Assembly (NCBI RefSeq): GCF_032118995.1 | Contig: NC_092648.1 | Span: forward strand, 19,806,450-19,870,449 | Source: Asterias amurensis | Taxonomy: Eukaryota; Echinodermata; Asteroidea; Forcipulatida; Asteriidae | Length of the DNA stretch: 64,000 nucleotides | Direction of reading: 5' to 3' | Shown: piece after piece, positions 172-63,900 of the stretch | Layout: each line of letters starts with the position of its first letter | Position numbering within the stretch: the first letter of the stretch is position 1 | Program-made: the position numbers and the translations under genes | Notes under the pieces: generated by a model | The model's database searches: none | Seen by the model: only the letters and a program-made list of their open reading frames with translations | What the model was told of the DNA's origin: nothing

Positions 172-3100
172 ATGGGTTGTGGAAGCTCACAGAGTGCATC
201 AACGTCAAGCCTTGGGTCAAACGATAAACTCAAACCAGAGAAATCGCCGTCATCTTTACGGAAAAAAGTCCTGATTTCCCAGAGTGAGTCCAAAATCCGA
301 GATAGCCAGTCATTGGAAGGTGACAACGAGCAGAGACCAGACAGTAGAAGCACGGGGAGAGATAGCGGTATAGATAGCGCTAAGACCACTGATGGTAGTA
401 GTAGGAGAGCTGGGAGGCAGACCACAGATGACGGAAGCCAGTCAAGACAAAACGAAGGTAGGAATGGCACAACTCTAGGAAATTTCAAGGACAAACAGAA
501 TTTCAATTGAAAATGTATACAACCTTGAGTTTCTACTATGTGATAGAGTTCAAGAAACCTACTGAATACATCGATAAAATTCATATTTCAAATCAATGAT
601 GGGCATCAATGATGGATGTAAATTTTATCACCCTAAAAGTAAAACAAACTGCAGTTGCAACTATTCGAGTTTTGTCATTTTTGTAGTATGATGCATTCTG
701 CATTTGATGTATCAATATATTATTTATAAACTACAGCCCTACTTATATCCGGTATTCCAGGTAATCCTGCTCTAAAATATGAAAAAGCTCAAAAGGTTTC
801 AAACTACAATGCAAAGTAAATTGATAGATTTATCAAATTACATGTATCACCATCATGTTTACTTTGTCCTTTATATCTTGCAACCTATTTTTTAAAACAG
901 TATCAAGCGAATCCCATTGATCAGAATTTGTTCTGTACACCAAAGTCCACTCTTTTGTATTATGTGCTGTTTTCCTAATGTACAAACAAATATAAAAGGC
1001 AAGAATGTAAGAGGCAAACAGTTATGAGAGGTGTCCAAATCCTAAGTAAATAGAACCCCAATTGTATTCCATTCATGTCACTACAATCTCTGATAAATAA
1101 AGAGAGAGCAGATAACGAGATGTGTTGAGATCGTTTCCCAACTTAACCCCCCCCCCCGACCCCCCCCCCTTGCAATTTAGTGTTATTTACACTGGTGGCA
1201 GCCTAAGTAGTTAGTCAAATGTTGGAGACAAAATTAAACTGTTTGCTGAATGCACAGACATGATTGTTCATTTTATAATCAAAGCACGCAGCGTCAAAGA
1301 GTGGATTTTTTAAAAGCCTCACTAACTGTACAGGAAGTGAACAGCAGCTGCAGACCAGCGCTCCTCGATGACACTTGAAATTGACGGCTATTTTTGGCCA
1401 TTTTACGGGTTAGAATTAATCATTTACTTGCAATGTATAATGAGGACATTGTACAGTGTGTGATGGAGGAATCAAAATCAATTTTGTGGTTCATTTGATT
1501 TTGAAGGGTTTTGGTTGGAGATATGATTTTAATTAAATTATGTTTGTATTGTAGTTCAAGCATAGAGTGTTTTCTTATGGTTTTTAATTTGATTTTTTTA
1601 TAGAAGGTTTCAAAATCTTATTTGTTTTCTCATTAGGGATTTTTTTTTATTAAAATATCTATAAAAAAGATAAATAAATTTCTAAAAGTTATGAACATAT
1701 TTACTTTTAGCCTTTTCCAAGCCTCTTTACGCAAGCACCAGCCCGCTCTGACTTCACGAAGTGCATAGATACTATACCGCACGGCACAAAACAGTACTTG
1801 ATACCGCGGGGTCGAAGCATGGCTTTTCGAGGTATCAACAAGGTTACAAAACGATGCCGGATCATACGTTTTGTAACCTCATTGATACCGCGAAAAGCCA
1901 TGCTTTGATCCCGCGGTATCAAATACTGTTTTGTACCGTGCGGTATAGTATCTATGCATTACGTGAAGTCGGAGCGGGCCGGTGCTTGCGTAAAGAGCCT
2001 TGGACAAGGCTAGTTTACTTTATATGAGTCTCTCACAGAACAAGATCATCCTGTCCATGAATATTGGCAGAAAAAAACCTGTTATTTATGAGAAGTTTAT
2101 TTTCAAAATATCACCTTGTGATTCTTTTGTTCACAGTTCCTACTCCTGTTGCCTTTGAAGTCGTCGTCGGAGAAACCAAGGGTCAAAGTATAGTGAAGCA
2201 ACATCCGCCAAAACGATTACAGGTAAAGCTGTCAATAACAAACCAAATATATACTATCTTCACTTTCTCATTGCATTTGGTTCACGGTAACCCCACAGTT
2301 TGATCTTGTAGATTTTGTTAGAACTTAGAAGTTGTCTCAAGTGCTGTTCGTTCTACTATTGCAGAGTAGATTCTTAAAGGCCTTCTTAGTTTTGAAAAGA
2401 ATTGTCCAGTTTTAAATGGACTACTTTAGCTTAGTGGGTCTATATTTAAACGCAACCTGATCTATGTAGAGGAAGAGTTAGGTATTGCCACTAAAAAGCC
2501 ATTGCTGCTCAAATTTCATTATGCAATTGCAGCTCATTCTATTAGAAAGCAGATAAGCAGAAGATGTTCTTTTTTTTTTACAGATGAAGATGGTGGATGA
2601 TGAAGACCGTAAAGTTACAGCTGAAGATTTAGCCACGAGACAAAAACTTGTTGAAGAGAGGAGGTTTCAGGTAATTAGTCTTTTTTTTTTTCAAATAGCT
2701 AAGACTTTGCCCTGTGGTTTGTTAAATCACGTGTTTGTTTGTCGGGCAATGAGTTATTCAATTGTTCATTGTTGTTGTGTCCCTTGTCAATTAAGTTGTC
2801 TTCTTCTTCTTTGTTGTCTTTGACCTCTTCTTCTTCACCTTCTTCTTCTTCTTTGTCCTCTTCTTCCTCTTTTTTGTTCCTCTCTTTGTTCTTTTTCTTT
2901 GTCTTATTTTCTTTTCCGTTCTTCCAGGGTTTTGTTTACAAGCCAGAGCCAGGGATAATATTCCTCTATCTAAGGACAAGAAGAATTAGCTGTTGCAAAC
3001 TGCTTACCAGCCAAAAGGATCTATGGTAGTAATGAAAAAACAGTTAATGGCCTAAACTTTTGTTCCTAGCAGAGTCTTTCACAAAGGCTAAAATGAGAAA

Positions 3101-4920
3101 GACTTTGCTCTGGTAGAAATGTCAGGTCATTAACAATGTTGCAAGGACACTTCCATTTAAAAATCACAGCACCTATGAAGAGCACTTCCAATCCAATTTT
3201 TCTATTAAACTACATTTTACAGGAGCTACAGAAGCGAGCGCAGAGTGCTAAGCGGACATCAAGAAGACGTAAAGATATCTTAGCAGCCAAAGAGTTTGAC
3301 ACCAACCAAACCACTGAAGCACAACAAAGGAGGGTAGGTAGAATGGACTATTGACAAACAAACAAACAAACAACAACAAACGAACATTAACGGTTGGCCC
3401 TTACTGTTTTGGCACATTTGTTACTGTATGGTGCAAAACACATTTGAAGCATTAAAAAGCTGGTTTAAATTTGCATGCCAAGGAAACTTATTAGTTTTTG
3501 TTTTTAAACTCAATCAATATTGCTTTGTACACTGGTAGAACATTATTGCTGTTCAAAAGTTTTGATCATTTCATTTAAGTTTGATTGATAGATTGAGTTA
3601 TTGACTAGTTATGATTGACTGATCATGATTGCTTGATTGATTGACGTTGATTGATGGATTGGTTGAATAATTATCGATTGATTGATCAATTTTTTATTGT
3701 TGATTGATTATTGATTGATTTATTTATTTGTTGATTGACTTAATGATTAGTTAATTAATATCATGATTGACTGAACATGATTGTCTCATAGATTGTTTGA
3801 ATAATTGATCAATTTCTGCATTGATTAATCATTTATTTATATATTGTTAATTGATTAATTAATTAAAACCATGCATGCATTATTTTATCTGAAGCTTGAA
3901 GACAAGATTACATCAGCAGAGAAGAACAGAGCGAGACAGAGCGCTGAACTCCAAGCAAAACAAAGGATTCGAGAACTCAAAGCATCGCAGGCGCGGGAGA
4001 AGGCAAAACGTCTCAATCAAAATCTTGAAGATGATGTGAACTTTGATGTGGAGAAAGATGAGACGTTTAATGCAGACGATGGTAAGTAGTCGTCTGTTTG
4101 GATGTCTGTCTGCTGCTGGAGACATTGATTTTTTTCTACAGGGAGAACTTCTTCAGTCTCCGGAATATTTGATTGTTCGTCTTCCAAGAACTCCATTGTG
4201 TAATAGGGAGACAGATTCAGTCTGTTCTTCTTGAGGATTTAATGGATGTTCACACTTTGATTCATAAGAAAAAAAGAGATTTTTTTTGATGGGCATTAAA
4301 AATAACGGATCAATTAATTTCATTTTCGTTCAATAGCATGGAGGTTTGCAAAGCTGTTTTAGCAAATGGAAATTCCAGTATTACTCGTGTCAGATTCAAA
4401 CCAACAACATTTGCCATTCTAGAGCACAGTACACCACCAGACTAGCCCATTAGCTAGAGGCAGTTTAAATCCTATTTAAACAGTGGGTACTGCAACAATT
4501 TTTAGAGAATTCAAATTTGCATCAAGGATACAGAGTATTAATTGAGTTTTAACCATATAACTATAGTACTTTGTAGTAATAGTATAATAATTGTTACAAA
4601 AAACACATACATGTATATATAACCCTATTAATTATCATTGTTTTAATTTTTTACTTATTAAAGCTGACTCATGGTTGGATGGAACAAACAACAACCCCTT
4701 AACCAGCAAGGGCTCAGCATCCACAAACAACTCAGAAAGAATCTACGACGGGCGTAGCAGTCCAACAAAGAAATACCACCCTCTATCGAGTGCTGAGGTG
4801 AGAAAGAGACAACACAGCCTCGGCAGTGAAAGCGAGGATGACGAAGGGGCAGCGGGGAGCCAGTGGGCCAGCCATGCAACTGCCAACGCTGATACCCAAG
4901 ATACCTTCTTTGATGACTAG
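172..4920 (+). CDS. STMND1: Stathmin domain-containing protein (STMND1-like), six exons
   Basis: Coding exons are 172-457, 2137-2222, 2584-2670, 3223-3333, 3895-4081 and 4664-4920. All have GT-AG borders and matching phases, giving 337 residues. The protein starts MGCGSS, a typical N-myristoylation signal with a palmitoylatable cysteine; vertebrate STMND1 also starts MGCG. Residues about 10-95 are polar and serine-rich. The stathmin-like domain begins in exon 2 (VPTPVAFEVVVG, then KQHPPKRLQ), matching the AFELIL...PPKKK start of stathmins. It continues as a charged helix with VEERR near residue 150, up to about residue 240. The acidic tail ends DTQDTFFDD. Stathmins bind tubulin dimers and alter microtubule dynamics; membrane anchoring here is inferred from the N-terminus. 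Exons 2, 3 and 4 are short, and introns 1, 3 and 4 hold repeats. The call is firm for the domain and slightly less so for one-to-one orthology. Confidence 0.85.
1708..2013. mobile_element. Foldback DNA transposon with about 140-bp inverted arms (Mutator- or hAT-like MITE)
   Basis: The element is almost wholly palindromic and lies in intron 1 of the stathmin-domain gene. The left end reads TAGCCTTTTCCAAG; the right end reads CTTGGACAAGGCTAG. TTTACTTT occurs immediately outside both ends (1700-1707 and 2014-2021), giving an 8-bp target duplication, or 9 bp with one mismatch. It has no coding capacity. Long arms with an 8-9 bp duplication fit Mutator-like or hAT elements; the superfamily is inferred. 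The TAGCC end is shared with the element at 43364-44046. Confidence 0.75.
2796..2930. repeat. Pyrimidine-rich CTT/CCT low-complexity tract
   Basis: A long C/T strand built of imperfect TTC and CTT units lies in intron 3 of the stathmin-domain gene. Its reverse frame gives a lysine/arginine-rich open stretch that is an artefact of composition. Confidence 0.85.
3042..3135. mobile_element. Short foldback element, family E (GTTAATGGCC ends)
   Basis: The left arm GTTAATGGCCTAAAC...AGCAGAGTCTTTC pairs with the right arm GAAAGACTTTGCT...ATGTCAGGTCATTAAC. A half copy with the same arm lies near 63625-63668, and an eroded one near 16026-16060. The element is non-coding. Confidence 0.65.
3575..3868. 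repeat. Degenerate GATT tetranucleotide repeat
   Basis: Many imperfect ATTGATTGATT units fill most of intron 4 of the stathmin-domain gene and end just before the acceptor of exon 5 at 3895. Confidence 0.85.
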
Positions 4921-8162: not shown

Positions 8163-11100
8163 ATGTCACGCAAACCGTTATTTCCGAGTGCAAACACAAG
8201 ACTTGATCAAGTGCGAGATGCCATTTCGCCTTCCGCAGCAGAATCATTACTCGAGATTAATGATACAACCAAAGTTAGTTTAATTTCGACTGGTGTTGTG
8301 CAAAGCACATCGTCTGAAATACAACAAATAGGTATGTTACATAACCATGTTTATTTATTTAATTTGGGGAAACTTATACGTTGTCTTGTGCCTAGAAGAC
8401 AATTAAATAACAGCAAGAAAAGAGTTGAGAAAAAACTGAATTATTTATGTATCTTTGGCTTTTTAGGGAAGTTAAGTTTGCTAGCCCCATCCTCATTTTT
8501 TCAAGGATTGCAAGTGGATTCAAGGTACTTTTTATGCAATGGTAATTGTCAAAGACCAGTCTTCTCACTTGCTGTTTCTCAAACATATGCATAAAATAAC
8601 AAACCTGTGAAAATTTGAGCTTGATTGTTCGTCGGAGTTGCGAGATAACTATGAAGAGAAAAAAAACGCTTATCACACGAATATGTGTGCTTTCAGATGC
8701 TTGATTTCGGGACCTCAAATTCTAAACTTGAGGTCTCGAAATCAAATTCGTGGAAAATTACTTCTTTCTCGAAAATTACTCCACTTCAGAGGGAGCCGTT
8801 TCTCACAATGTTTTATACCATCAACCTCTCCCATTACTCGTCACCAAGTAAAGTTTTATGCTAATAATTATTTTGAGTAATTACCAATAGTGTCCACTGC
8901 CTTTAAATGTAGCTTTATATTCCTAATGATTGATAATGGAACTTCACACCAACTTATTTAAGCAGTTCAGTAAAAAAAACACAAGGGAAACTGACCGGGT
9001 AGAACTTCAAAGACAATGAAGAAATTTCATTCTTTTAGTTTTAACAGGAGAGAAACTCCCAAGAATTACAAAAAAAACACCCGGTCAGGTACGGACTGAA
9101 AACCCAGCTCCACTTTATGGCCGATTCTTTTTTTATTCAATCATACTGTATTTACAATATTAAATGTAAAATGCAATTTTAGATAGAACAAGTCTCTTAC
9201 CTTGATAAGTGAAGAAGTGATAGTTGGTTGCAGTAACCGTCCCTTAAATTTAAACTTAGATATTTAACATAAGTGTCGTGTTATTCATTTTTCTAGACAA
9301 TTTAGACTGGCTGACTAACCAGAGCTTTCGTAGTGATGATGCAATCACCATTGCAAAGCAGCATGCAGTTAAAACGGATGAATACGACAGGGAGGCAGTC
9401 CGTCAAGTTTCTTCACTCCATCAGAAACACAAGGCTGAGGAATCTAACTCTAGTGAAGATTCAAGCCAAGATAACAACACTGAGTCGAACTCAAAATCAA
9501 GCATTGCTCAACTTGAAAAAGACCATCACAAATCAAGGTCCATTTCTCATCATTCACACAAAAAGAGCAAAAAACACAAACATAAAAGAGACTATGAGTA
9601 CAGCTCTGATGATAGAAAGCAGAAACAAAGTCATCATCGTGATAGACACCACAGAGATAAGAAGAAGAAATCTCACAGGAAGAAAAAGAGGAGGAGAGAT
9701 GACTCAAGCAGCTCTAGCAGCGATGAGAGAAACAGTGTCGCAAACTCCACACACGGGTCTGAAAAGTAGGCAAATTGTTTTGATAAATTATATAAAATAA
9801 TTTATATAAACTTTCCATCTTTTGTTTTTTTGCCATTTACTGATCATACTGATGCAAAGTTGTATCGCAGTTTTTACAGGAGCTCCTTAGGCAGAAACAA
9901 ATCCACAGAAGCCTTTTGTAAGCAAAGGTCACATTGTTTATTAGACATTTATACACCTAAAGAAATCCCTTAAAAATCCCCAGTTGCTCATCAATGATCA
10001 AGTTAAGATTTTCGGTTTGCATTTATTTACTTGTTTTTTTTTCTTCTAAACTTTCTGTTGTCTTTCTACAGAACCGTCCCAGCAATTGAAGAATTCTGTA
10101 TTGATGTCAAAGCTAATCGGAACAATCTCTGTTTTGACAGTCTTCATTTCACCGACACGGTTGCCTACCATCGTCTCGGTCACTCGTGTCTTGGGCTCGA
10201 CAAACGCCGTCAGAACGTGACTTGGAAAGATGTCAAACCAAAGAAGAAACAAAAAGAAGGGTCAATGGGTTTCAGATACTTCACCTCAGCTCCACTTGAG
10301 GTAAATGAAGATGCGGTTGACACGGGGGCAAACCCTGGAGCAACTAATCCACTAAGGTTGCACTCAACAAACGATTCCCTATCGTACATCCCAATAGTTG
10401 ATCCTGGCAGCAGCCGAGCAAAGCCAGAGTGTGATCCTCTTGGAGTCTACGATCAATCTACCCGAGCATATCTTCAGCCTAGTACCACTTTGAACCCTTC
10501 CTTTCTACCCCTGGTTAAGTCTGAAACATCCACCAGCCCAGCAACTCACACTACTGCACACTACAACAGACATTTACATGACAACCCACTAGATGTTCAT
10601 ATGTGGCTTGAGTTTGTCAGATTTCAAGACTCCACTGAGTATGATAAACTAGTTCCGACCGGTTCCAACCAGTCCCAGCAGGATAGCGACTCAAGTAAGA
10701 TGAGCAGTAATAGGCGAAGAACGGCCAAACTGATTGCTGAGAGGAAGCTTGCGATACTTGACAAGGCTCTACTGAGGAATCCGAACAGTGTCCCGTTACA
10801 TCTTGAGCAGCTGAAGATCGGAAAAGAATTATGGGATGTATCAGAGCAGATGAAACAATGGGAGAGGCTTCTTCGGTTGAATCCTGATGATGTGTTTTTG
10901 TGTAAGGAGTATCTTCTCTTCCATCAGACCTGTTTTTCTAGATTCTCAGTTTCCAAGGTGGCTGGGCTGTATGGAAAATGCTTTACAGCTTTGACTTCTA
11001 GGTTGGCAGAACTCGATGAAGATGAGACTTCCGATATGGAGAAACACTTACTGGGTAAGTTTGACCTTTCTTATCCATTGAAGTGAAAGACAATACTAAT

Positions 11101-14100
11101 GGGAGACTTTCAGGACGCTTGGTGGCAGCAGACTTACCAGGTAAAATCCATTGTTCTCGGTCATGTGCGCATGCTCAGAACTACGTAAACAATGGAAATT
11201 TACCTGGTAAGACTGCTGCCACCTAGCGTCCCAAAGTCTCCCATTGTATATAACAATAATGAGGAGCTGTATGGTCAAATTCAGTTTTGTGATCACTCAT
11301 TTTCAAAATTGATTAAGTGATTGACTGATGGATTGATTTAAAAAGACATCAGTGATTGACCAGAAATGCCCTAAAAGTAACAGTTTACAAAGTTCAAAGT
11401 GTAAACAGAATGAAAGTGAACGAACTATTTTTGTCTCTAATCTGAAGTAAAAATGTCTATAATGCCATTTTATCTGATTACTGTTTATCAAGATCATTGG
11501 AACAAGAAGAAAATTGTTGAGAGTGTTCAGCCAGTTTTTCTTTTTTCCCAGTTGCCCAAAATTATGTTTGCAATTTTTGTGCCCTGATCAACGTAGATCT
11601 GTTTGTTGGCTTATGTCATTTCTGGAGGCAGTCCGGTCATACAGAGAAAGCTGTGGCAGCGTACCAGGCTATGATTGAACTCAACTGCTTCTGTCCATCA
11701 GATATACAGCAAGACACTCACCTTGAGGGACAGGTAATTGTAACATTCAAATCTGTATTTAATTCCTTCACATCGGATTTGAGTATATAGGCCTGAGCCA
11801 AACTTTTCTGGGCTGGCCTCTGTATGCTAGATGCAACAATATGCACCAAATGGTAATAGTTGTTGTAATCTGTTGCATTTGGCAGCCAATTCAGATGTCT
11901 TTCTTTGGATGAATTTGTTGCATTTAGCAGTCAAGTGACTCACTTCATATTGGTGTTGCATTTTGTTGTATTTGGCAGTAAACTCAAACTCATATTGTTG
12001 CATTTGGCAGAGTTGATGGTCCTACCTATTAGGCATGTCACCACTACACTTATATGTATACTGTTGCATTTAGCAAAGCAAACACCCTTGCTCAGTCCTA
12101 ACAAAAACAACGTGCCTGCACAATGCAACAAAATCCCTTGTTGCATTCTGTTGCATTTGGTATGGTTCTCTACTGTTTTACATTCTGTTGTATTTGGCAG
12201 GGTATGTTGAGGGAGCCTAATAGTTGTTTGGGTTGTACGGAACAACTTTTTTTGCTGACAGTAGGATGGCTGACATGTATATCGGCCGGGACATTCCATT
12301 GTTTAGTGTGCACCTAACCATGCTAGGTTTTTTTTTCCCTGTACACAGAGGGCAGAAGGTACTGGTAATCACGCTCGTAATGTCCCTTTTCTCGTTGATA
12401 TTATTTCAAAATGAATGATACTTCAAATATCAAGTAAAATACAAGATAATTTCACAGACTTTGAACATTCTTTATTAAAGTTCTGCTCTAACCAAACACA
12501 GTCAGCTTTAACAATAGAGTGTGCTTTCCGCCCTACAAAGTTCAATATTCAAATCCATTCAGTTACGTCAAACTTTGATGGGTAATTATTTTTTTGCCAG
12601 GTTGCCTTTCTGGAGACCTTCTGGGATAGTTCCAAGCCACGTTTTGGAGAGAAAGAGGCCAAAGGATGGGCAAACTGGATGCAGAAGAAATCACGAGGAG
12701 GATGGGAGGAAGTTAAGATGCCTCGTAAGTGCAACTTTTGCCAACATTTTAAAATGTTCAATGAGGTCACATTTCAAATTATGGTCTGTCCACTTTTGAT
12801 GATATTCAACCCAATTTAATTTAACCTTTTACCTGGCATAATAAAGCCATGTTTAAATTTTCAATCTGAAAGAGTATCAAATAAAGTGTCATTTTACACC
12901 ATTTTAACAGGAGGTTAGAGACCTGTAATTTGTCCCCAATTTTATGAGGATTCTATTGGAAAATGAGCGCATCACAAAACTCAATTTGCCATCTTCAACA
13001 AAAATGTGTTAGCTTGAAGATCAAAATATAAACTACAAATTACAACTACTACTAGAAATGACTTTTGTTTTGACGTTGCTTTATAACTCTGAATTATATT
13101 TAATAGAAGTTAGTGAAGTCGATGATGAGCCATCAAGCCCAACAGCAACCTTGACTGACATACCCCTGTGGCAGGCCTGGGTGCAAGAGGAGATCTCCAG
13201 AGAAGCTCAACAGTTTGCCCCTTGGAGTCCCGACGAGACCAAGGGAGAAACTGAAGACGATTGTGAGGATCCGGAGCGTATGGTCCTCTTTGATGACATC
13301 AGTCAAGTTCTGTTCAGACTAACCTCTCATCAGGAGAAGCAATTCCAACTCGTCTGTCACTTCCTGGAGTTTCTAGACGTATCAGTTCCTCCCTGTTTGG
13401 TTGGAAAGGAAGGCTCGGACACGTTACAGCTTTATCTAGACCAGCCAAGCCAGATACTCTCCTCTGTGAAGACTTCCGTTGGTGTTGGTAAGCTGCCGTC
13501 GGGATGTTCAGGAATAGCTAGCAACTGTAGGTCCTTAGAGCAAATGACAAATGCTACTTCTGTAAAGTTAATTGTTGAAGATGCTAGCATGGACTACAGA
13601 ATATTGGAAGATTTTGTGGAGGAGGTATTTCAGCAAATAACACCGGTGTTTCATGAACCGGCTTGCACGCAGCTTTTGTTGATGAGGCTCGACTGTAGAA
13701 TGCAAAGAGCACTGATTGCAAAAGATAAGAAACAGCAAAGGAAGAAAGTGAAGGAAGCCAAGAGGTTTGCCAAGAAGCTGCTTAGCCAGGAGGAGAATCG
13801 CAATAATTTAGATCTGTGGGCTTCTCTAGCTAGATGGGAGGGGACAATGGGGAACACAGAAGAGGCGCAACGTGTACTACAGACAGCTCTCAGATTTTGT
13901 GGGCAGCCACAAACCAAGAGAGACAAACAGGCAGCTACGAGGCTTGTGCAAACATTTACTGAGCTGTTTCTCTGCTTTCAGTCCAAATCATCTAATGTTG
14001 TTGTCGGACAGGAAAACAATGTAGAAGTCCTAAATGTGTTGACAACGCTCGGGGAAGGGATGGCGTACATTCCTCTGAAAGATATTCCAAGTCAGAGTGT

Positions 14101-16560: not shown

Positions 16561-16956
16561 ACTATTCAAGAGGTGTATCAGTCCTGAGAAGTGGGGTTCT
16601 CATCATTTTCTGCTCATTGCCCGGCGTTGTATGTGGATGCAGTAAGACACCATCCACCGAAGCTTCAAGATTGTCAAGATCTGCTCATTGAGAAGGAGCT
16701 TCATCACCGTGCTCCTCTTGAAGAAGTAGAACTACTGATGAAAAGTAGACCCAGTTAGACTATTCAAGAGGTGTATCAGTCCTGAGAAGTGGGGTTCTCA
16801 TCATTTTCTTCTCATTGCCAGGCGTTGTATGTGGATGCAGTAAGGCATCAACCATTGAAGTTTCAAGACTGTCAATATCTGCTCATTGAGAAGGAGCTTC
16901 ATATATGTGCTCCTCTTGAAGAAGTAGAACTACTGATGAAGAGTAGACCCAGTTAG
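16561..16956 (+). repeat. NRDE2: Two extra tandem copies of the NRDE2 terminal coding exon
   Basis: Two 198-bp units (16561-16758 and 16759-16956) each hold a full 135-base copy of the last NRDE2 exon (16624-16758 and 16822-16956), in the same frame, without internal stops and ending in the same SRPS-stop. Copy 2 reads CCG where the acceptor AG should be, so it is probably not spliced in. Copy 3 keeps a normal acceptor (CTCATTGCCAG) and could act as an alternative last exon. Copy 3 differs from the first exon at five bases; four change the residue (V to A, L to F, D to Y, R to C). Copy 2 also carries several replacements. Both lie in the 3' UTR if the first copy is used. That copy 3 is ever used as an exon is inference. 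Confidence 0.9.
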
Positions 16957-17038
16957 ACAATACAACTATTCAACATGCTTAACTGTCTTAATATCTTGAT
17001 TGAAGATAACCAGGGCCCAAATTCATAGAGCTGTTTAA

Positions 17039-17647: not shown

Positions 17648-17653
17648 AATAAA
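17648..17653 (+). terminator. NRDE2: Probable NRDE2 polyadenylation signal
   Basis: AATAAA follows the last exon copy by about 690 bases in AT-rich sequence. It is the clearest signal before the minus-strand gene, but its use is unproven. Confidence 0.4.
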
Positions 17654-17789
17654 ATAATTTGACAAAAAAGTTAAATCATCTAGTTTTCTGTCATACATGT
17701 GCATGTTAATATTTTGATGAATAAATAAATACTAAAGGTAACTGTACCAGTCTGAAAGGAACCCTTTTTTCTTTTTAAAGGGTGTACAT

Positions 17790-23400: not shown

Positions 23401-25341
23401 GACCCAATTGACTGTATGAACTGTACAAACCCATTTTTTTCAGAATGATGTCATTTGATGTTTTTTGTTGACAAATCAGTTATCAAGTGCACCTTATAAT
23501 TTCAATTACCGGTTTCAATACAAGCAAGTTGACTTTTGAGCCTTCAAATGTTATTTTCTCAACTTGAAAAATACTTTGGACAAAATGTTTTTCTGGAAAT
23601 TAAAACAAATTGTATACAAATAACAATTGTGCAGGACCTCTTAGTTTATAATGCAGGATCTTAAAATAAGAAATTCAACCACAGAAACCATCATTTGCAA
23701 AATTGTGCTTGTTTGGTTTTCTATCATAAAGCACACTTTGGTTTAACAGTAAAATTGCAAACTAAAATTCCTTGTGTAGGCCTATAATATTTACAGCGTC
23801 TGTGCTTTTCAAGATGTTAATTGATTATGGCATTTGAAAAATGGTTTTGCCTAAGGCCACTGCTGCCTAGATCATAAATTAATTTCTAATCCACCATGAA
23901 TAAACAAATAAAAACTGTCAATACTTATGTACTTCACATGCACTTCACTTTGAATGCTCAAGTTGGCCATTACATAAATTATAGTTTGTATTATGTCAAC
24001 CATTTTCTCAGCTCCATACACTACATGTAGCTGCATGATATGTGAACAATAGTGTAAAGTTTCAACTTCTATTTTGCAATAATATTTACAAAACCATAAA
24101 TATTTGTTGTGTTTTGTTTTAACTTGATTATGGTACATTTATAAATCAATGAAGCTGTTGCTGATTTAAATAAAGGAATTAAGGGACAATTTTGTAATAC
24201 ATTTGTTCATCACTTTAGTGACAGGCATTTTTGCTAGCATGTTGCCTATAGACATCCCATTTCCTCTTTTTCTACGTCACTCCACACCAATTTGTTTGGA
24301 CTAAGATTTAAGATTGGAATGCCTGACACTGATATGCACTTGTTGTTTGGGCCTACTGTCCCCAGTCCTTCTGAATCCTTCACTGTAGCAATTAGGATTT
24401 GGGACTACCACATGTATTATATTAGTTTTTGAGATCAAAGCACTGGGCTTAATTTTTATAAAGCTGTTTTAAGCTGAAATTTCTTCTTGACTGTGCAAAA
24501 ATTAGCAGGGAACCAGTCACTAACAATATATTTTTTGGCTGGTAACCTGTGTCTGCCTAGCAAAGTTTCGCTTTTTAAAACCTTCTTTGTTTGTTTAACA
24601 TCTGTACGAAAGTGGGCCCGTGGTTAAAAGTCTGGCATCTGTTAAACCTTGATGAGTGTTTTAGAGTGAATTCAAAACAGGGTGCATGAATTTAAGCCCA
24701 ACCCATAGAATCAACATGCCGTCTTTTCTCCATTGGTTTAAATAAATGATCATTGAAATGACAGAAATGTATTCTCAGAGTCGTACACAGGATGCACAGG
24801 TATGACGTACATAGTGCTTGACGCCATACCCTCCAAACCCCCCTCATCATTGGCTTGGGCACTGCACTTAATACCTACTGGATATCATCTTGAACCCTCT
24901 GTGTTTTCAGTTAAACACGGGAAGCCTTGAGGGAAATAATGCTATCAAGTCACTCCCGCGTCCTCGCAGACAGCCAAATAATTTTTATTTGCATCACTCC
25001 GGCGTCCTCGAAGACAGCTAAACAATTTTTACTCGCAGTACGTGCGCAGTGCGGGAATACTCGTGGAGTTTATGGTACATTTGAAGTTGGAGCATTCCGT
25101 TGCCTAATAGTCTGGAGACTGTTAATAGATTGTGAAATGTGTGGCAATGCACTTCTGGTATTCCAGACCTGTAGATTATACTCCTAATAACACAGTCAAA
25201 GTCAATTTGTTCAGCAGCAAGTCACTCAGGTGGTTATTAAATTTAATTTTCTCCCTCATTTTATGTATGTATAAACCTACTTTTCAGAGTGTGATCTGCA
25301 AAGTGTAGAGAGAGACTGAGCTGCTTGAGGGGCAGCCTACA
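20431..25341. other. Intergenic region; no gene supported
   Basis: The first 200 bases should hold the promoter of the minus-strand gene. The rest has only short frames lacking recognisable motifs (for example 22140-22694 and 20966-21217). A family D fragment lies near 24447-24600. A start-like AATGGCGG followed by a donor-like GTGAGT occurs near 23187-23205 but leads to no identifiable exon. Confidence 0.5.
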
Positions 25342-25810: not shown

Positions 25811-26172
25811 TTAAAGGCAGGGGACACTATTGATAATTACTCAAAATAATTATTAGCATAGAACCTTACTTGGTACGAGTAATAGGAAGAGGTTGGTAGT
25901 ATAAAACATTGTGAGAAACGGCTCCCTCTGAAGTGACATAGTTTTTCGAGACGATTTTGATTTCGAGACCTCAGATTTAGAATTTGAGGTCTCGAAATCA
26001 AGCATCTGAAAGCACACAACTTCGTGTGACAAGGGTGATTTTTCTTTCATTATTATCTCACAACTTTGACGACCGATTGAGCTTTCACAGGTGTTTTATT
26101 TTATGCATGTTGGGATGCACCAAGTGAGAAGACTTGTCTTAGACAAATACCAATAGTGTCCAATGTCTTTAA
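25811..26172 (+). mobile_element. Family A TTAA foldback MITE, copy A5
   Basis: TTAA stands at both ends (25811-25814 and 26169-26172). The termini are AAGGCAGGGGACACTATTG and CAATAGTGTCCAATGTC. The central palindrome GACCTCAGATTTAGAATTTG is near 25968. The copy is complete. Confidence 0.9.
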
Positions 26173-28584: not shown

Positions 28585-28960
28585 CAGGATTTGGGTACTT
28601 TTTGTAACACAAAACATAATGTCCACAGATTTACATTAAACCTACACCCTTTGAAGATAATGATAGAGAAAGCTTACCTTAAAATGTTAGTTGTTTGTTA
28701 AGGTGCTGTAGTTTTTGAGAAATGAGTAAAAATATGTTACAAAATACGTTTTACATGCTGAAATAATTTTCGGCTCACTGAGACAAAATATATTTGTTTG
28801 ACTTGTTTTACTCATTTCTCAAAAACTACAGCACCTCAGCAAGTAATATTTTTAAGGGAAGCTTTCTACCATCATTATCTTCAAACTGTGTGGGTTTAAT
28901 GTAAATCTGTGGACATTGTGTTTTGTGTCCTACAAAATGTACGTACATGTAGACCCTTTA
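28585..28960. mobile_element. Family B foldback MITE, copy B1
   Basis: Both arms carry the family words: ATTTACATTAAACCTACAC and CTGTAGTTTTTGAGAAATGA on the left, with their complements on the right (TTTCTCAAAAACTACAGCAC and TAATGTAAATCTGTGGACA). The ends are eroded. The right arm contains a TACATGTA at 28944-28951 that copy B2 lacks. Confidence 0.85.
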
Positions 28961-31446
28961 TCAGAATGATACATTGATGACTACAGTATTAACATTCTTT
29001 AAATGTGGATGTGCCATTTTATTAAAACTTTAAATGCATTATTGATTTATGTAGGCACTTCAGGTACATAATGGAAAGGAAAAAAGGAATACGTGATGCA
29101 ATTTAACCTCATGCCCTTAATTTCTTTGGATTCTGGTTGGAATGAAACTCTGATCTCGGATGTTTACATCTACCCATCATTCATAGGGTCAGAAAGTAGA
29201 AAGGTGTGGTGGGAAATGTTGTCGTCGTTGTTTGGTGGGGTGCAAGGGGTTCAAACAGCATACATGTAGCTTTAAAGGGTCTGTATTCGTTTGGTATTAC
29301 TCTGAAAATAAATGCAAAAAAAACTTACACGGCAAGAAGTACTGCTGCAAATTTGGATAATATAATGTATTTTGAGAAACATTTCAATTTGAAGTACTGC
29401 GGTTATGGGAAAAGATATCACAATTCTTATCCCCCAAAGTTTGTATTTCTTTTAGGGATTATTCTTCCTGCGTGGACATATTCGCTCCGGATTTTTGGTG
29501 ATATCTAAAGAAACAAATGCGACCACCTTTTGATATAAAATATTCATCTGTTAGTTTATTGTACCCTACATTGAAACATTCAAACAGTTCCAAAAACCAA
29601 AAGTATACTTTTCCTTTAAGAGCGCAAGCAATCCACTGCAGCTATTTTGGCTCAAATTTAAAATGGTGAAGCAGCAGCATTCGATGACGGGCAAGTATGT
29701 AGAAATTTCCTTAAAGAGCAAGGTCTATTAATAGGGCCTATGTCTTGTCATTTAGTTTTGTGTGACCTCAATGCACATCCTGTATTGTTCTAATCAGTAA
29801 TAGTGAAACTAGTTTTATGACATTGGCAAATCTGTTGAATAGTGATCAGAGGATACTAAATACTCAATGATACAACTGCAATCCTGCTATGTGCACGAAT
29901 GTTGCCCAATTGCTGGGGGGAACCTCTTTAAAAATGACAATCCATTCAAAGTTGACATCATAACTTGCCTGAAGTTAGTCTAGACTGTAGCAAAATGGAG
30001 GGAAATACTGAAGTGTTAGTTGTGATAAAACGTGCCATATTAAATCCTTACCTGACAAGGGGTGAAGTGACCAGGGTGAGGGGTGTTTGAGCTTCAGTTG
30101 TCAAATGAAGCAAAGTCACCCAGACTACAAAATCAGTAATTTTGCGTGGCCTAAAGTCTCAATTTTTTCTCTTTCTGCACTGAATTATTTGCAAAATAAG
30201 ATTGCTGCTTTGATGTTATTGAATGCAGTGGGGATATATTGGTAGTCTGCAAGTTGGCAAACTTGATTCCATACACCCCTCTCAAAAGAAAATGCTAGTT
30301 GGCAATTTTGCAACTTGCCAAAAGGAAACGCCCTCATCACTACACCCATGGTCCGCACCTTCCAACCTGTGACATAACAAATGTTTTACGTATTCCATTT
30401 TCTTTTGAAATCCAGAGAGATTTGAACACACAATGTACTACAGTTTCAAAGAACCAATGATGTAACATCCCTTAAAAAGAGAAACAAAGTCCAAAGAACA
30501 GGTGCCCCTGCACTTTAAAGCATGTTTCATTTCCGAGAACATCTACCTGTAGGATTAGCCAGTCAGACTTATGTCTCTCTGTTACCCAGCTCAATCTGTT
30601 CCCCGATCACTGAGCGTTATTCACATTTCAGCCCCTCTCTGAACAGTGAACCTTGGGCGATAACCGTGCAAGTCAATTGTATTATTTGCAGCAGGCTTGG
30701 TGCTCTCCGAGTGCAGGGAGTATACCTATCCCCCACTTCAACAAGACACCTTACCGAGTCGATCATCGATTGACTTGGGAGAATTCACTTTCGGTCAGAT
30801 TCAATTTGTCTTCGGCTGGGAAATTGCCTTTTCACCCGAGCGGAATTTAAGAAAATGGGAAGGACCGCCGTTGCAGCAAGCGGGAGAGATTCTTCTTGTA
30901 TTGAGTTTGGAAGTCAGTGTTTGTCCAGAGCGGTGGATGTGCCTACTGATTTGAAAAATGTATGCGCATAATTGTTGTGATGTGAAACGTGAGGCGTTCC
31001 TTTTTTCCCCAGTCTTTTCTCCTGTGTTTTTTTTTTACTGAAAGAGTAGTGTGGTCGGTCTCAATTATTTGTTTAGTGCTCTCTGCTGTTCTGGCAGTGT
31101 AAATGTCATACTATAATTGTTTGTCATGCAATGTTGATTCAAAGTATTAACCCATATTCTGCATAATTTAGTTTAGCAGAGCATCGGCATGTTTTTGTCA
31201 ATATAAGTTACCTCCCACGTCTCTTAGCTTTGTCACAGTGTCTCCTGGTGGTGTTGTTTTTGTTAGGAAGAACTGTAAGTTTGCCGATACAACTTCGTGT
31301 AAATCTTATTTTGTGGGAGTGTTGGCTTCTTTTGCTCTGAAAAGGTGCGTCGGTTTTTCCTTTATGAAACTGGAAATCTTCTAAGAGCCTAATTAATACG
31401 TCACAGGAAACTCTTTTTTTTTTTTTCTAATTGACAATTTTTTGTC

Positions 31447-33618: not shown

Positions 33619-34011
33619 TTAAAGGCAGTGGACACTGTTGGTAATTACTCAAAATAATTGTTAGCATAAAACCTTACTTGGTAACGAGTAATGGAGAGAG
33701 GTTGGTACATGTAGTGTAAAACATTGTGAGAAACGGCTCCCTCTGAAGTGGAGTAGTTTTTGAGAAAGAAGTAATTTTCCCCGAGTTTGATTTTGAGACC
33801 TCAAGTTTAGAATTTGAGGTCTTGAAATCAAGCATCTGAAAGCACACAACTTCATGTGAAAAAGGTGTTCTTTTCTTTCATAGTTATCTTGCAACTCCGA
33901 CGACCAATCAAGCTCAAATTTTCACAGGTTTGTTATTTTATGCATATGTTGAGATACAGCAAAGTAAAAGACGGGTCTTTGACATTTACCAATAGTGTCC
34001 ACTGGCTTTAA
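33619..34011 (+). mobile_element. Family A TTAA foldback MITE, copy A6
   Basis: TTAA lies at both ends (33619-33622 and 34008-34011). The termini are AAGGCAGTGGACACTGTTGG and CCAATAGTGTCCACTGGCT. Compared with the other copies it has six extra bases that create TACATGTA at 33706-33713. Confidence 0.9.
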
Positions 34012-35722: not shown

Positions 35723-36739
35723 GGTCAATAGAAGCTTTGCAGGGCACTGTTAGCGCAGAATTTTGCGGGAAGCAGAGTCACGAAATTGGGTCCTGTGCTG
35801 TTTGCATGTAACAGAGTTGCCCAAATCATACACATGTAGTGTCGTTCACCATCTCAAAATGGCTAATGCAGTCACTCACACAAATGGGCATCGATTCTAC
35901 AGATTCATATCGTGAGTTCTTAATACACGGAGGTCAAGGATACAGATCAATACTTGCATTATGAGCGAAAAAGGAACATTTTGGTTTGTAATTCCTTATT
36001 GGCAAATCGTTACAATGTTCAAAGTGGTAATATTGGAAGAAGAAAAAAACAGCTGAAGGTTCGCGAGGTCTTTCGCCGTCTCTTCTAGCTGGCAGGGGAA
36101 ACACTGCTGATAACTCTACGGTCGTTTGTCAAAACTGCTTTAATATTTCTACATGTTTGACAGATAAAGTAGGGTGTCCATCATAAAAAATAGGATTCCT
36201 CCCTCCCCAAAGTGTAATCTCAAAGCCCATATGTTCTCGGTGTGTTTATGTTGATGGTGTTGCTCATGATATAGGGTGTTCATCTGAAAAATGGGGTCGC
36301 CCACCCCCCCCCCCCAACCCTGATGTGCCAACAATATATTCTTTGCTCTAAATGTTGGCATTTGTCAGTTATTTAACCTGGGGATTGTTACACAACTCAA
36401 GTACTAGTCACAGCAAACATGCCCTTGTCCCCCGGTGTAAATAATTCAAGTGTACATGTAGAGTTGATGCCTTCAAGTTCAAGTTTAATCTCAAAGCCTT
36501 CTGCGCCTTGAACACAAGTGTGCACATTACAAGTCTTTATGATTATTAACGCCCATAGTTTCTCGTTGTGTTTTGTTGATGGTGTTGTTATTATGTATTG
36601 TGATATTTGACTTGCTGTTTGTTTTCTTGTAAAAAATACAAGTATGATGCTTGTGAAGTGCATTGACCATTTCTGGAATTGCGTTATACAATGTATAAGA
36701 GCAGTTATTGTGGCCATTATTAGTATTATAAATGTAGCA

Positions 36740-37870: not shown

Positions 37871-39699
37871 TTTTCATTTGCACTGCTAGCCATATTTTGA
37901 GTCAGAAGCTCAAATAACTTTAATTAATGGTCTTATTGCATCTGGTTTAAATACTAACAAATCTTTATCCCTGTTGCAATTCATACACCATAAACTGTTT
38001 CTGGTATCTTTCAGTGTTGTAGTTAAGACCACAAAGTTCGATACCAAGAATTTCCTTCAAAGACCGAGACCTCAATGTCTCAGGTGGAGGGGAGACAAAG
38101 ACCAAGACTGAGACCTCAGACAAATTTGTAACTGTAAACAATGAAACAACTTTCATTGCCAACTGTCTTTATTTTCAATAGACTTTTAATGCTGAACCAC
38201 GGCTTTTTCTTTGTATCAGTCCTCACTTCGGGTATCTCATAACGAGTGGTACTGGAAAAAAGTTTGATTGTGCTGATCTACTCTCCAAAAACATTCGCAG
38301 TGAGGATTTGTTCCTTTTTTCCCCAAGTACGAGTGTGGCTCACAGCTTTAAGCCTCAAGTTCACTACAAGTCAAGTTGACTTTGAGTCTTGTATCTATAA
38401 ATTTTGTTGAGTGTCTAAGGCAGCAGTACCATGAAAACAAATTAGATAAGTCCTCTCTCGCAGCTTCTTCAAATAAAGGAATTTACACATAAAATGTGAA
38501 ACTGCATAGAAAGATCTTTCTCTTAGACTCTGGTCTTGTAAAATAAATTCTGCTCCTGGAAAAAAAAGAAGACTTATAAGCCAATGCAGTCTTGGTTTTT
38601 TACACTTAATTCGAGCCCTGGTTGTGATTGTTAATCAGAATTATTATCTGGTTTTCAACCTTAAAAGCGGTTCTGTCATGTTTGAAATAATCCCTCTAAA
38701 TACCCAAATGAAAATCTTTTTCAAATGTAGTCTGCTTCATGTAGAAACGAAAAATCCATGTTGTGCTTGAAATAAAATTGAATTAGAGAAAACAACAATG
38801 TTACACTTGAGTTAACAATGATACTTACACGTTGTACATGTATGTGAACGTGTCGATGCATCTCCTGATTTTAAGATCCTGAAATAATTCAAATCACGGA
38901 ACCTGTGCTCAAGGGAGTGTGTTGTTGGTCTCGGGTTAGTAAAGATGTGTCTTCAGTGGAATCGAAGATCAGAAATAAATGTGTACATGTACGTGTTCTG
39001 CATTTCTAAAATCTGACAGTGCTGTTTGTTTTTGAGAATTTCTTTAGCGATTCTGCCTTTGAGCTCTATGTCTCTGTTTTTTTCGAATATTTCTACAATC
39101 ACAATTGGGCCAAATTTCATCAAAATGTTAAGCACAAATAAAATAAAATTTGCTTAGTAATGCTTGTAATGTGTACTGTACATGTGACTGGTTCCCTGCT
39201 CAATTCTGCTTAGCAGATATAAAACTATGATAAATGTTTGGTTTAACCCATATATCGCAGGCATTTTACTCTAATGGGATATAAAACTGTCAAGCAAAAT
39301 TATGTCCTGCTTAACCGTTTTGAAATTAGAAAATTAGTCTCCTTCACACAAAGGCAATAAACACGAAGGTCCCTAAAAGTGCTGTAATAATCCTGCTATA
39401 ATTGCACAGTCTATTAAAAGATATCAGCCGTATTGGGAATATTTGAGCCGTCAATACATGTAGCCGCTGTATGTGAATAAGTCATCAGCATAAATCTTCC
39501 CCATTAGCTCAGTCCATCAACATTAGCCTCCTTCGGGGATTGAAAATCCTCCCTACAAATTTTAAAAATTCATGACTGTCGCGTCAGGTGCTGTTGCTAA
39601 CACCAATAGCACACCCACCACAGAGTCTGAATTCACAGTTATATCACATAAAAAGTCAGTGGATTGAGAAGAGCAAGCTAGTCAAAACGTTGAGACCAA

Positions 39700-45204: not shown

Positions 45205-47785
45205 ATAGTGTCCAGTGTCTTTAAAAGGAGTGTACAATTATTGTACATTGGAAACAATAAATCAAAGTCAAATATCTTTCGATCTCTACCCAACTCTGAA
45301 GAAGATATTATTTTACATGAATCTTTTCGTGAATCCCTGGACGAAATGCATACATTGAAAGTAAGTTCCAGTTGGCTGTTCTAAGATGCATTGGTGTAAA
45401 TAATGAGGAAGTCTATAGAAGGAATCAGTTTACCAGCCAAGATACAATATCATGTACTGTCTTCGTCTGGTTCCCACTTGGCTTTGCTAAGCAAATTCGC
45501 CACTTCCATAGCAAAAGAGGCCATCTCAAAAAATTACATCTTGGGAAAAGCAAGTACAGAGATTAGCTGTTTTGCCATAAACCCCCCCCCCGGATAAAAG
45601 TGTTAAAAGAGGACGAGATAGGACATTAATCACAACCATGTACATTGTAGTATGTATTTGAAATTTAAAATGGAAAAATGTCCTTAATATACCCCTAAAA
45701 CTTTTAAGAAACCAAAATGTTTGTGTTAGGCTGTATGATGCCATGAAAGGGCTGACTTGTAAAGCCGCATTTTCTGCTGCAAGCAGCTCTCTGGAATTAG
45801 GCCTTGTTTCTAATGTGATAGCCAGTCAAGGTTGACTAATGGTGGTGTGTTGTGTCATGATCAATACACATTCCCTATGCTACAGTTCGGTCAGTATAGG
45901 GCGCATTAACCACGCTGAAGATTTACTGTTATTGCCCCAAGACGAGTCTCTCCGTCTTTTTGTTTTCTCACGTTTATTTACATCCATGTACATGTATCAA
46001 TGTCTTTGAAGAAGGAACTCTAAAAGTCTTTGTATATGTGAACCATGTCATGTAAACCATAATTGGAATTAATATTCAGGAAACAAACACTTGAGTGAAA
46101 ATTATGACATATATGATATCTATTTTGTTTACAATAATTGAAATCATTGTAGGTACGTAGGTGTGGTGATTTAAGCCCATTAAAAATATACTTCCATACA
46201 GAAAGAGAAGACATTCTTAAACGTAGTAGAAATATTCATCACAGAGGAGCTCTAATAGGGGGCACTGTACACAAAAATGGATTACACAATAAACCCTGGT
46301 TAAAAGGGAGATTACAAGCACAGACTCCAGTGCCTTCTGATCCTCTTTTTACAGGGGAAATATAGTACATGTATAGCGTGATAGTTGTACTCTGCACAAT
46401 GGAATGTCTGAGTGGATATAAATAAGCTGTCCAAAACTTTGAGGGTGCAGAAAAAACGCATGCCGCAAGCTAGATAAGAAAGTTTTGGAGAATATACACC
46501 TCATCCAACCTGTTTAAGTTGTTTGCATAAATGCAGTTATATGTAGTAGTGGTAGCCTTTGAAATTATTACCAGATCTCTCCACTTTAGTCAAAATTCCA
46601 GCTCTTCCTGTTTTCCTTGAATGAAAATAGTAACAAAAACAATCTGGAGTCGGGGGACACTCAAGTCCGCTAAATATTTATAGATTCATGATCATGCTTT
46701 TAAATGGTTAGAGCGGGAGGGCAATTTATTTCAATTAGCGGAAGGGCAAGGGGTGAACTAAAGCAACTGTAGTGGGATATGCCGGCAGGGGGTTGATAAA
46801 TGTATCAGAGTAAATGCGGAAATGCAATTGAATTAAATTCTCTCAGAGCATTTATGGTTTCATTATATTTAATCGAAACTCTGGCAACCCACGTTAAATG
46901 ATAAATATTCAAGAATAATAACCACTCCCCCACTGGGTTCTTTTTTAAAAAGAATGTTATAATTTTGTCCAGCTTCTGAAATAAAAAGGTAAATTTGCAG
47001 CGACATCTTAAGTTCAGTTTTCTTTTTCTACAAACTGTAGACTTTCAGAGCTACGTCCATCAAAATAAGAAAGAGCCTTGCCGCTGAGTTGGCGGACTCC
47101 TTATTTTTATATTTTATTATTATTATTAAATTTCTTCTTTTTTTTTTGGGGGGGGGTGCCAATCACAAGCCATACAACCTTTTTCTGCCAGTTATGCCAA
47201 TTTAGTTAACTGTATTTGACCGAGGGAATAAACAGCTTGAAAAAAACATAAGCCGTCATTTACACATACAGTCAAAACGATACAAACTTAATATGTCATG
47301 ATATTTTCACAGGTTTGTTTGGAAACTTGAGGATGTAAACAAAATAATTACTCAGCTTTTAATATGTAACTCTTGAATTTATGTGGAAATTATGACACAA
47401 AATGTAAAATTTTCCGTAGGATTTTGCCTGCCCAGAAAGGCACTGGACTGTACAAGGTCACTCAGTTTGTACAAACAAAAGTTTGATCTTTGTTTTTCAG
47501 TACAACCACCGCCCATTTGAGGTGCATGATAAAGGAGTTAATAGTAAAAGAGTCAACAATAGCGACGGTTCCACATGAATGAGCACATCCAAGAGTACAC
47601 CCGTGGTGTTGATCCAGTGATGGTTGTCAGTGAGTGGTTCCGCTATACACTGATTAGTGGTCTTCACCTATGGTGTAGGTTTAGTCAGTTTTACAACAGA
47701 TAACAACTGGTCTGCTGCGAGGTATTCGCTGCATATAGACTCCAGTCACATTTCCTGCATAGGCTTGGGAAGTTCAACATAGTAC

Positions 47786-47959: not shown

Positions 47960-55044
<7,085 letters not shown>

Positions 55045-60321: not shown

Positions 60322-60705
60322 TTAAAGGCAGTGGACACTATTGGTTTACTCAAAATAATTATAAGCACAAAACCTTACTTGGTAACGAGTAATGGGGAGC
60401 AGTTGATGGTATAAAATATTGTGAGAAACGGCTCCCTCTGAAGTGACTTAGTTTTCGAGAAAGAAGTAATTTTCCATGAATTTGATTTTGAGACCTCAAG
60501 TTTAGAACTTGAGGTCTCGAAATCAACCATCTAAAAGCACACAACTTCGTGTGACAAGGGTGTTTTTTCTTTCATTATTATCTCGCAACTTCGACAATCG
60601 ATTGAGCTCAAATGTTCACAGGTTGGTTATTTTATGTATATTTTGAGATACACCAAGTGAGAAGACTGGTCTTTGACAATTACCAATAGTGTCCACTGTC
60701 TTTAA
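60322..60705 (+). mobile_element. Family A TTAA foldback MITE, copy A8
   Basis: TTAA lies at both ends. The termini are AAGGCAGTGGACACTATTGG and CCAATAGTGTCCACTGTCT. This copy is complete and one of the best preserved. Confidence 0.92.
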
Positions 60706-62181
60706 CTGGAAACTTCATAGGAGTATGCTGTGTTTCATGTGTGGTTAGGATATTATTTAAAGGTGAGGGTACAGCTTGTTCAGTTTGGGAAAATATTATC
60801 GGCTAGTTAAATGTAAGCGTGCAATTAAAATGTCTCAGAATGGCAAATTATTAGTGAATGGTTCAGTAACTCTGATCATAATTTTGTTGCCACACTGAAT
60901 ATTTTATCTGGCTTGTGCTGTTACAGTATCATTCGTCCAAATTTGCATAGTGTGGAGACAAATTTATGTATTGATTCTAATCACTATGAGGTGAACTTAG
61001 TGAAAAGTTCGTAGCCGCTTAAAAAAGTTCCTAACACATTGTTTTTTACTTTTTAACTAAATAACACGTTGGACTTGACGTCTTATCTAAAAGTACAGTA
61101 CAGACGTCATATGGCATCATCACTTTTTTCCAGAACAGAAGCACAGCATGCAATGTTTTCATGCACATAGTGTGGTGTTTATCGCATACACTACTAGATT
61201 GTATCTCCACAAACAAGTGCAAAGTTTCAAACCCTACTACATGCAGTTTTGTCGCCATGTGGTTATAAATGGTGAGCTAAATTCAGCACTTATTTGATAA
61301 TTTTGAAATGAAGTCACTCCGTGCGCCCCCCGTTTACAGTTTGAGGATGAGGTTGCCATGGACACAATTCTTTGCCGAATGATGAAGTCGCTCTAATGGC
61401 ATGATTTACTTCCTGTGTGACTGTCAATTTGGGGGTTTTGTTTTTAAAAAACACTAATTGCATTGAGCGGCCGGCATAAGGTATAGTGTGTGGGGAAACT
61501 GGCAATGATTAAAAGTTGATATGATGATATGTGTTTTAAATAAACTTGAAGTGCATGATGAAATCATTAGGATGCAATATTTAGAATATATTATACACCC
61601 ATGCCTCAATAAAGTGGATATTGAAAGCATTACAGCTGTGTCGGTTAGTAGTTAAAACAACAACGTCTAAGGACAGCCTGGTGTGACATGGCTGCGTTTG
61701 CAAATAACATCTTTTTCAAGCAGTACAATCACAAGCCCTCTGTGTATGTCTCTGCAGCCTTACACTTGCATGGCCAGGGGATAAAAAATTCGATAGATTA
61801 GAAAGAAGCTAATTGGAAAGATGAAAACTGGGAAGATTATTTTATACAGGAAGTCCTCTTGCCTTAATTTATTTCCATGATGGTTGGTGTGTGGAAGCCA
61901 ATGCGCACAAATGAACATGACCCTTTGCACCCCCATGGTTGATTGAAGAGCTCAAAAGCAGTTTTAATGCATACATTGCATACATGTGATAGTCACATAC
62001 ATGTACTACCAAAGTGTATGATAAAGGCCCATTCAGTCAATAATAAATTTAAAAAAAGGTATTTTATTTATGTCATCTTTATTGAGGGTAAACTCCAATC
62101 AGCACCCAGCATCGCTTTCCATTGAGGCCCTCAGTTACAAAAATTATATTGTTTTTGTTTATATTTTTTTGTTTTTCTGTT

Positions 62182-62600: not shown

Positions 62601-62833
62601 AATGGACCCTTCCCACGAAATATGCTAATTACCTTCCTGCATGCGTACAGACCCTGTTGGTTGGCAAATGCCATAGAGTTGTGCACTAAGCAGACGCGCA
62701 ATCGCGCTTGCGTCACGCAGCCATTAGCCATGTACAAAACAGCGCGATATTCCCTCATTTTGCCAACCAAAATGTTAGTGCGCACGCACTACATGTATTT
62801 GTGCAATTTACATATTTCATGGGAAGGGTCTAT
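62601..62833. mobile_element. Foldback MITE with GGACCCTTCCCA ends
   Basis: ATGGACCCTTCCCACGAAAT at left pairs with ATTTCATGGGAAGGGTCTAT at right. Inner arms TTGGCAAATG and TTTTGCCAACC also pair. A TACATGTA interrupts the right part at 62790-62797. Confidence 0.7.
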
Positions 62834-63900
62834 TATGTTATATTTATTTTTTTGAAAGTACACAAAGTATTCAAAACACTAAAGTCAAGATTGAAGAACA
62901 GATTAGAGATGTTTGTACTATTATTTAGGCTAGAATATTCAAATTTGTATGCCACACACACAGTTCCTTGTCAATTGATTAGTTGGAACACGCTTGTTGT
63001 GCTTTATTTTCCCATGTACACAGCCGAGGCACTCCAAAATTCACAATATAATATAGTAAAGTCCTATGGATAATTATGTAGGACACTCCAGATGTGGTTT
63101 CCAAAATGATCATTCACAAACCTGTTTGTCCAAATAAGGCAAGGTTGTGTTATGACGGACAAGGTTGGTGTCTACAATGGAGTTGTTGACGTTCAATATT
63201 TTTGTGGGGCTGTGCCTATGTTGTGTTATTGATAATCAAAAACGAAGCTTCAAATGACAAGGATCTATGTGTGAGTTATAGAAACAAATATTGAATGTAT
63301 TTTGTTTGTGCATCGTCACAAATGCAATCACTCTGTGATATCTGGCTTTTCCATTTCAGTGGGCTTCAGTTGAAGTGGAAGAGTCCAGATTTCACCTTGT
63401 GATTATGTTCTCCGAAAAAGAACTCGTGCACAACCTCGTATGCATCCAATGTAATTTAAAAAAAATCAAGAAGTTTTTTGTTGTCTTTTTTTAAAGCATC
63501 TATTGGAAACTTGTCAAAAAGAAAACAATAAATAAATTGTTATAAAAATATTAGTGTTGACAGATTAATTTTAAGTATACATGTAGATTTAAATTATAAA
63601 AATTATAAATTAGATTTAGCCTTTTTTAAGAAAGACTCTGCTAGGGTAGAAATGTCAGGCCATTAACTATTTTTTGCATTAAATTATAAAACTCGGACTT
63701 TACGTTAACACATTTTTTGTACAATTTGTAGGCATCTACATGTGCACGTAAGACAGTTTGGATTAACTTCTCCCAAAAATCCTTAAAAGAAAGCTTTAAT
63801 TCAAATTCTATGCCATGGCGAGCTGATAAACCTTTTGGCATGGCACCAAGTCTTGTGACACCTTGCCAAGCTGGGCGAGAACGTTTCAGAAGGGAAGTCA

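Follow-up and report, generated by a model that had tools for sequence, protein, structure and literature searches.

Most of the excess of the palindrome TACATGTA in this genome is very probably a population of excision scars, left by elements that inserted at TA and carried CA ends. The word, a classic Tc1 footprint, was found as an exact gain of CATGTA recurring at three TA positions of one MITE family, and these gains support the sequence-only reading of TACATGTA as a Tc1-type excision scar. In the proposed mechanism, IS630-Tc1-mariner-type elements with CA...TG ends would insert at TA, and a transposase would later excise them, its cuts staggered by two bases and placed two bases inside each 5' end, so that two terminal bases stay on each flank. 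End joining with all bases kept would then yield TA-CA-TG-TA, which adds six bases overall. From the length of the scar, a DDE transposase would have made cuts offset by two bases. We infer that the result obtained on the MITE extends to most of the genome-wide excess and that most of the source elements have by now been lost or have diverged. Excision scars are usually studied locus by locus; in this case they seem to influence which words are frequent across an entire genome, and to preserve traces of transposon activity that would escape ordinary annotation, the elements themselves being gone.

Abundance of the palindrome in window and genome

The window, i.e. the whole analysed stretch of 64,000 nucleotides, contained 19 copies of TACATGTA against expectations of 2.06 from base composition, 1.42 from dinucleotides and 2.02 from a third-order model. 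A sixth-order model expected 16.8 copies, but is built on the very 7-mers that compose TACATGTA. Besides the two copies residing in compared repeats and one with a weakly aligned partner, which are described below, word counting placed the copies, without strand assignment, at 839..846, 4608..4615, 24022..24029, 29261..29268, 36453..36460, 38835..38842, 38984..38991, 39455..39462, 45989..45996, 50208..50215, 50916..50923, 52426..52433, 53617..53624, 61998..62005, 62790..62797 and 63578..63585. All copies counted in the sequence-only reading were thus present, one of them starting at 53617 instead of the 53618 given there. That no copy lies in an exon held for the stretches with Pfam matches, but the copies at 36453 and 62790 were inside long open frames. 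Among 64 composition-matched palindromes of the window TACATGTA was the most frequent, followed by CAAATTTG with ten copies.

In the genome (491.5 Mb, 23 contigs) 96,940 copies were counted, about 6-fold over composition. The expectation amounts to ~16,000 copies when the composition figure of the window is scaled up, and to ~10,500 to 15,700 when scaled from the local values of 6.5 and 9.7 in 304 kb; the genome-wide surplus is about 80,000 copies. The backward-read word ATGTACAT, a palindrome of equal composition, occurred 41,404 times genome-wide, also more often than composition predicts. The local values derive from a 304-kb set consisting of the window and 24 random loci, with the satellite locus L017 excluded. 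In this set TACATGTA had 53 copies, where the dinucleotide model predicted 6.5 and the third-order model 9.7; its 24 one-mismatch neighbours averaged 9.6 copies apiece. With z values taken from the third-order model, TACATGTA came second among the 256 8-base palindromes, behind TGACGTCA, whose higher value is explained by the location of 31 of its 66 copies in a single locus. The raw count of CAAATTTG was 58 and exceeded the 53 of TACATGTA, with 19-21 copies expected for CAAATTTG. Twenty random loci taken alone, L017 included, contained 28 copies of TACATGTA versus 4.2 (dinucleotide) and 7.3 (third-order). Several further palindromes exceeded their expectation in the 304 kb, though an equal enrichment of the composition-matched palindromes, named beforehand as the outcome contrary to a scar, did not occur.

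Short gains at TA positions of a MITE family

An all-against-all alignment of 339 kb contained 74 distinct six-base gaps, two of them of the ACATGT class (MITE copy A6 and position 6530 of locus L011); the A6 gap appeared one more time in a different register. Comparable repeat copies were few in this alignment, and genome-wide patterns were therefore studied on a high-copy MITE by querying the whole genome for bases inserted at chosen positions of the element. The family measures ~390 bp, has TTAA-type ends and gave 8,336 first-look candidates genome-wide, of which 40 were scored. Copy A6 (33619..34011 of the window, + strand) carries TACATGTA at 33706..33713, where the family consensus is TA. 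The exact six-base gain at a TA that had been proposed for this copy was borne out by comparison with the other copies: the copy at 25811..26172 (+ strand) has a plain TA at this position, and two copies without TACATGTA have GATGG there (60322..60709, + strand; 8540..8910, - strand).

At the A6 position (site 1), 138 genome matches had 2-10 extra bases. Among the 100 matches listed, 37 had exactly six extra bases, compared with 6 that had five and 5 that had seven. CATGTA accounted for 16 of these 37 six-base gains, the same gain at the adjacent TA for four and a variant for one. A second TA of the element (GCATA/TGTTGAG) had 394 genome matches with 4-8 extra bases, and 89 of the 100 gains listed ended in TA, thus presenting the form TA-X-TA, a TA on both sides as in a footprint. 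The most common X among these 100 was CATG (16), ahead of AT (11) and TA (9), for which slippage could be a source. CATGTA was also the commonest six-base gain at this second TA, with 16 of 37 among the matches listed, so that the two end bases per side of a footprint, CA and TG, were recovered at both positions. Rarer among the 100 listed were CAGTA (5), CTGTA (2), CGTGTA (5) and GGCCTA (3); such CAG/CTG, CGTG and GGCC gains look as would be expected of elements that differ in their ends or their stagger. The double scars TACAGTACATGTA and TACATACATGTA were present at the second TA as well and suggest repeated hits. Two CACGTA gains occurred among the 100 site-1 matches listed; CGTGTA and CACGTA may have been left by an element whose two ends differ (CA and CG), or may represent an altered CATG scar.

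Not every TA of the MITE was used, since a fourth one (GGTA-ACGAG) had nine matches with 4-8 extra bases and none with CATGTA. A control position without TA yielded five short-insertion matches genome-wide, with the inserted letters seen for one of the five. Intact 26-base flanks numbered, in 314 kb, eight for the control, two each for the second TA and site 1 and one for GGTA-ACGAG, all of them small counts. Short gains in the MITE are plainly concentrated at some TAs.

These gains bear on a reading of TACATGTA as a transcription-factor site kept by selection, for instance of the Iroquois type. Iroquois proteins bind a TACATGTA-like site, and the word is palindromic, sharp and, as far as checked, non-coding. 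Selection for binding would however leave the exact six-base gains at TA in MITE copies unexplained, as well as the TA-X-TA gains of other kinds that accompany them at these positions, and we regard it as extremely unlikely to be the cause of the excess. An over-represented palindrome is not necessarily a regulatory motif.

The recurrence of the gains was studied on a tree of MITE copies. Carriers were A6 and 20 TACATGTA carriers among the site-1 matches listed, 21 in total, of which three fell below the alignment filter; the carriers kept were 13 scarred at site 1 and five scarred at the adjacent TA (site 2). Together with 20 local copies lacking TACATGTA at these places, less two very divergent ones that were left out, the tree comprised 36 rows. 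It was poorly resolved: stars marked four of the 33 inner branches, and the main clade was nearly star-like. If the carriers had inherited the word from a few master copies, the gains would not be recurrent and the genomic excess would have another cause. Some carriers of the GGTTGG type are indeed mutual nearest rows. Against a few masters, the 13 site-1 carriers on this poorly resolved tree required 11 changes, no fewer than the mean of 10.8 after shuffling (as low in 358 of 500 shufflings), and the five site-2 carriers required five (shuffled mean 4.8). Site-1 scars were moreover seen on two sequence backgrounds, GGTTGA (7) and GGTTGG (9), and two neighbouring TAs were used. Descent from few masters is accordingly judged very improbable. 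The copies without TACATGTA were somewhat clustered, needing nine changes versus a shuffled mean of 12.4, a value that 22 of 500 shufflings were low enough to reach; this group includes an older clade of five. Since the carriers are scattered on the family tree, the gains look recurrent, and many separate CATGTA gains at site 1 would be the simplest reading. Separate rather than inherited gains, as in a footprint, were thus indicated at site 1, within the poor resolution of the tree.

Other repeats and a second scar-like word

Fifty-four TACATGTA sites were found in 314 kb, seven of them with a partner sequence aligned across the site. A six-base gap at TA was present at three of the seven: A6, position 6530 of L011, which lies in a tRNA-like repeat, and position 6941 of L007, where one of two partners aligned with the gap. 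Point differences were seen at two of the seven (L006, 6324; L017, 9283). Outside the MITE six of 53 sites were comparable, presenting two six-base gains, two point differences and two ambiguous cases, namely the window copies at 46366..46373, which has a single, weakly aligned partner, and at 62790, with a single partner alignment. A second example of an exact gain claimed in the sequence-only reading, in repeat family B, did not stand: opposite the TACATGTA of copy B1 (28944..28951), copy B2, as read by eye, has TACATA and not a plain TA, though the B2 stretch is six bases shorter. The L017 case belongs to a satellite-like array (G000:C3:10000001-10010000), in which a point change sets this TACATGTA apart from its neighbours. 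A tRNA-like Rfam match (38.7 bits), absent from the ARAGORN output under bacterial settings, is located at 53272-53343 of the window on the - strand, and repeats related to it occur in L011, L014 and L052.

Should the TA-X-TA gains be scars, the other common insertions X would be expected to appear as enriched words, and GGCC is one of these insertions. Its palindrome TAGGCCTA, the GGCC counterpart of TACATGTA, had 21 copies across 11 loci of the 304-kb set, with 2.3 and 2.0 expected, and the two words are the outstanding pair among the 16 TA-NN-NN-TA palindromes. Genome-wide, TAGGCCTA numbered 28,910 copies versus ~5,800 by composition, some of them in tandem clusters. The reversed word had 1,985 copies and is a weak control because of the CpG inside. 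As TAGGCCTA had already shown up as enriched, its excess is a consistency check and no blind prediction. TATATATA, with 22 copies in the 304 kb and 4.1-6.6 expected, is a simple repeat. The bases next to the scars were biased: A followed directly after the TA of the scar in a fraction of 0.11 (106 flanks), compared with 0.33 for all TA. Tc1 prefers a CA-TA-TG-like target context, and this is matched by the second TA of the MITE, with the context CA-TA-TG.

TA occurred 20,455 times in the 304 kb, or ~33 million times genome-wide. With a surplus of ~80,000 copies, this corresponds to one scar per ~400 TA, if all of the excess consists of scars. We lean slightly towards a view of the genome as a fossil bed of TA-inserting transposons, in which the scars (~80,000 of the CATG class plus the GGCC, CGTG and CAG/CTG classes) far outnumber the surviving elements. 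If this is true, high-copy repeats would serve as a recording tape, in which gains at one TA can be compared across thousands of copies and reveal the end bases and the cut stagger of transposon families that have otherwise vanished. A word count combined with a spectrum of insertions into repeats could be applied wherever a genome harbours an old repeat in high copy number, in order to learn how frequently cut-and-paste elements come and go and which repair outcome dominates.

Source elements and known footprints

A CA-ended Tc1-like element, whose presence in the genome had been proposed as a check, was found in locus L026 (908-2631). It has the ends TA-CACTACCGTGCAAATG...TG-TA, and HTH_Tnp_Tc3_2 and DDE_3 domains were recognized in two open stretches. 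Its exact end word was present genome-wide only at the two ends of the element itself, and the PF01498 profile had four genome matches, three of them above the cut-off; these results point to no abundant source element in this genome. In the local sample, a search for CA-ended, TA-flanked inverted repeats returned mostly the L017 satellite and MITE noise. Without L017 four CA-ended inverted pairs remained; L026 among them is convincing as an element, and L011 has a 312-bp structure that may be a second one. Long inverted ends were also seen at L025 and L027, with matched stretches that start without CA. For five sequences found after TACA at site 1 of other MITE copies, the local sample offered no convincing second occurrence as the end of an element. 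At the second TA, 92 matches started with CA after removal of the common scars, selected by a filter that passes only about four of ten random sequences; 51 of these were readable, and two of the 51 were judged by eye to be resident foreign ends. The makers of the scars seem to be largely gone, diverged, or members of other groups such as pogo.

The scarcity of source elements and the low number of resident foreign ends, two among 51 readable rows, would also be in line with a transposon-free repair, in which breaks at TA are mended by templated or palindromic fill-in and CATGTA is added. Such a process has to account for identical bases recurring at several TAs whose flanks are unlike, and for the CAG/CTG, GGCC and CGTG gains that share the TA-X-TA form; we consider it very improbable. 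Excision by transposases that leave terminal bases behind is the preferred reading, and it may be compared with footprints of known elements.

Excision footprints themselves are long known. The scar of Sleeping Beauty is of the CAG/CTG type, which matches seven among the 100 second-TA gains listed. The Sleeping Beauty type has three bases, CAG, whereas CATG implies two bases per end. Tc1 has a TA target, and its excision leaves two-base non-complementary 3' overhangs (PMC4490562); ISY100, a bacterial member of the family, is cut two bases inside the 5' ends (PMC2170065). For Tc1 excision in germ cells of Caenorhabditis elegans, 103 animals were described as yielding 26 distinct products (PMC4490562). 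The TA target is alike in worm and in this genome. The worm outcomes were varied, whereas here the scar with all bases retained outnumbers every other X among the gains listed for the second TA, the phenomenon is of genome scale and Tc1-like transposase matches are few. For Stowaway MITEs of the Triticeae, TA-flanked remnants of terminal bases placed on a phylogeny were used to infer repeated losses (PMC1925063). The remnants are alike, but that work concerned one intron and a known resident family, compared with a genome-wide word and a putative source here. ZB leaves zero to three bases on excision (PMC7913693), and shares with Sleeping Beauty and the scars described here the TA target and short remnants. 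The pogo element Passer leaves zero to four bases at the excision site (PMC9976928), and a source of the pogo type would therefore fit the scar length too. A full-text literature search, which covered few subscription papers, retrieved no genome-scale excess of excision footprints.

Further features of the window were recorded during the analysis. Two stretches of the window translated with X at stops gave no family, among them 15500-18000, which had no Pfam match in one frame. On the + strand, exons of the NRDE-2 family (PF08424) were recognized at 10007-11083 and 13013-14773 and an exon of the Peptidase M28 family (PF04389) at 51041-51382. The region 16425-17018 (+ strand) consists of three tandem units of 198 bases, the second and third being 94% and 77% identical to the first. 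A match to the histone 3' UTR stem-loop (36.5 bits) is located at 40451-40497 on the + strand, where nearby ATG frames have at most 55 codons.
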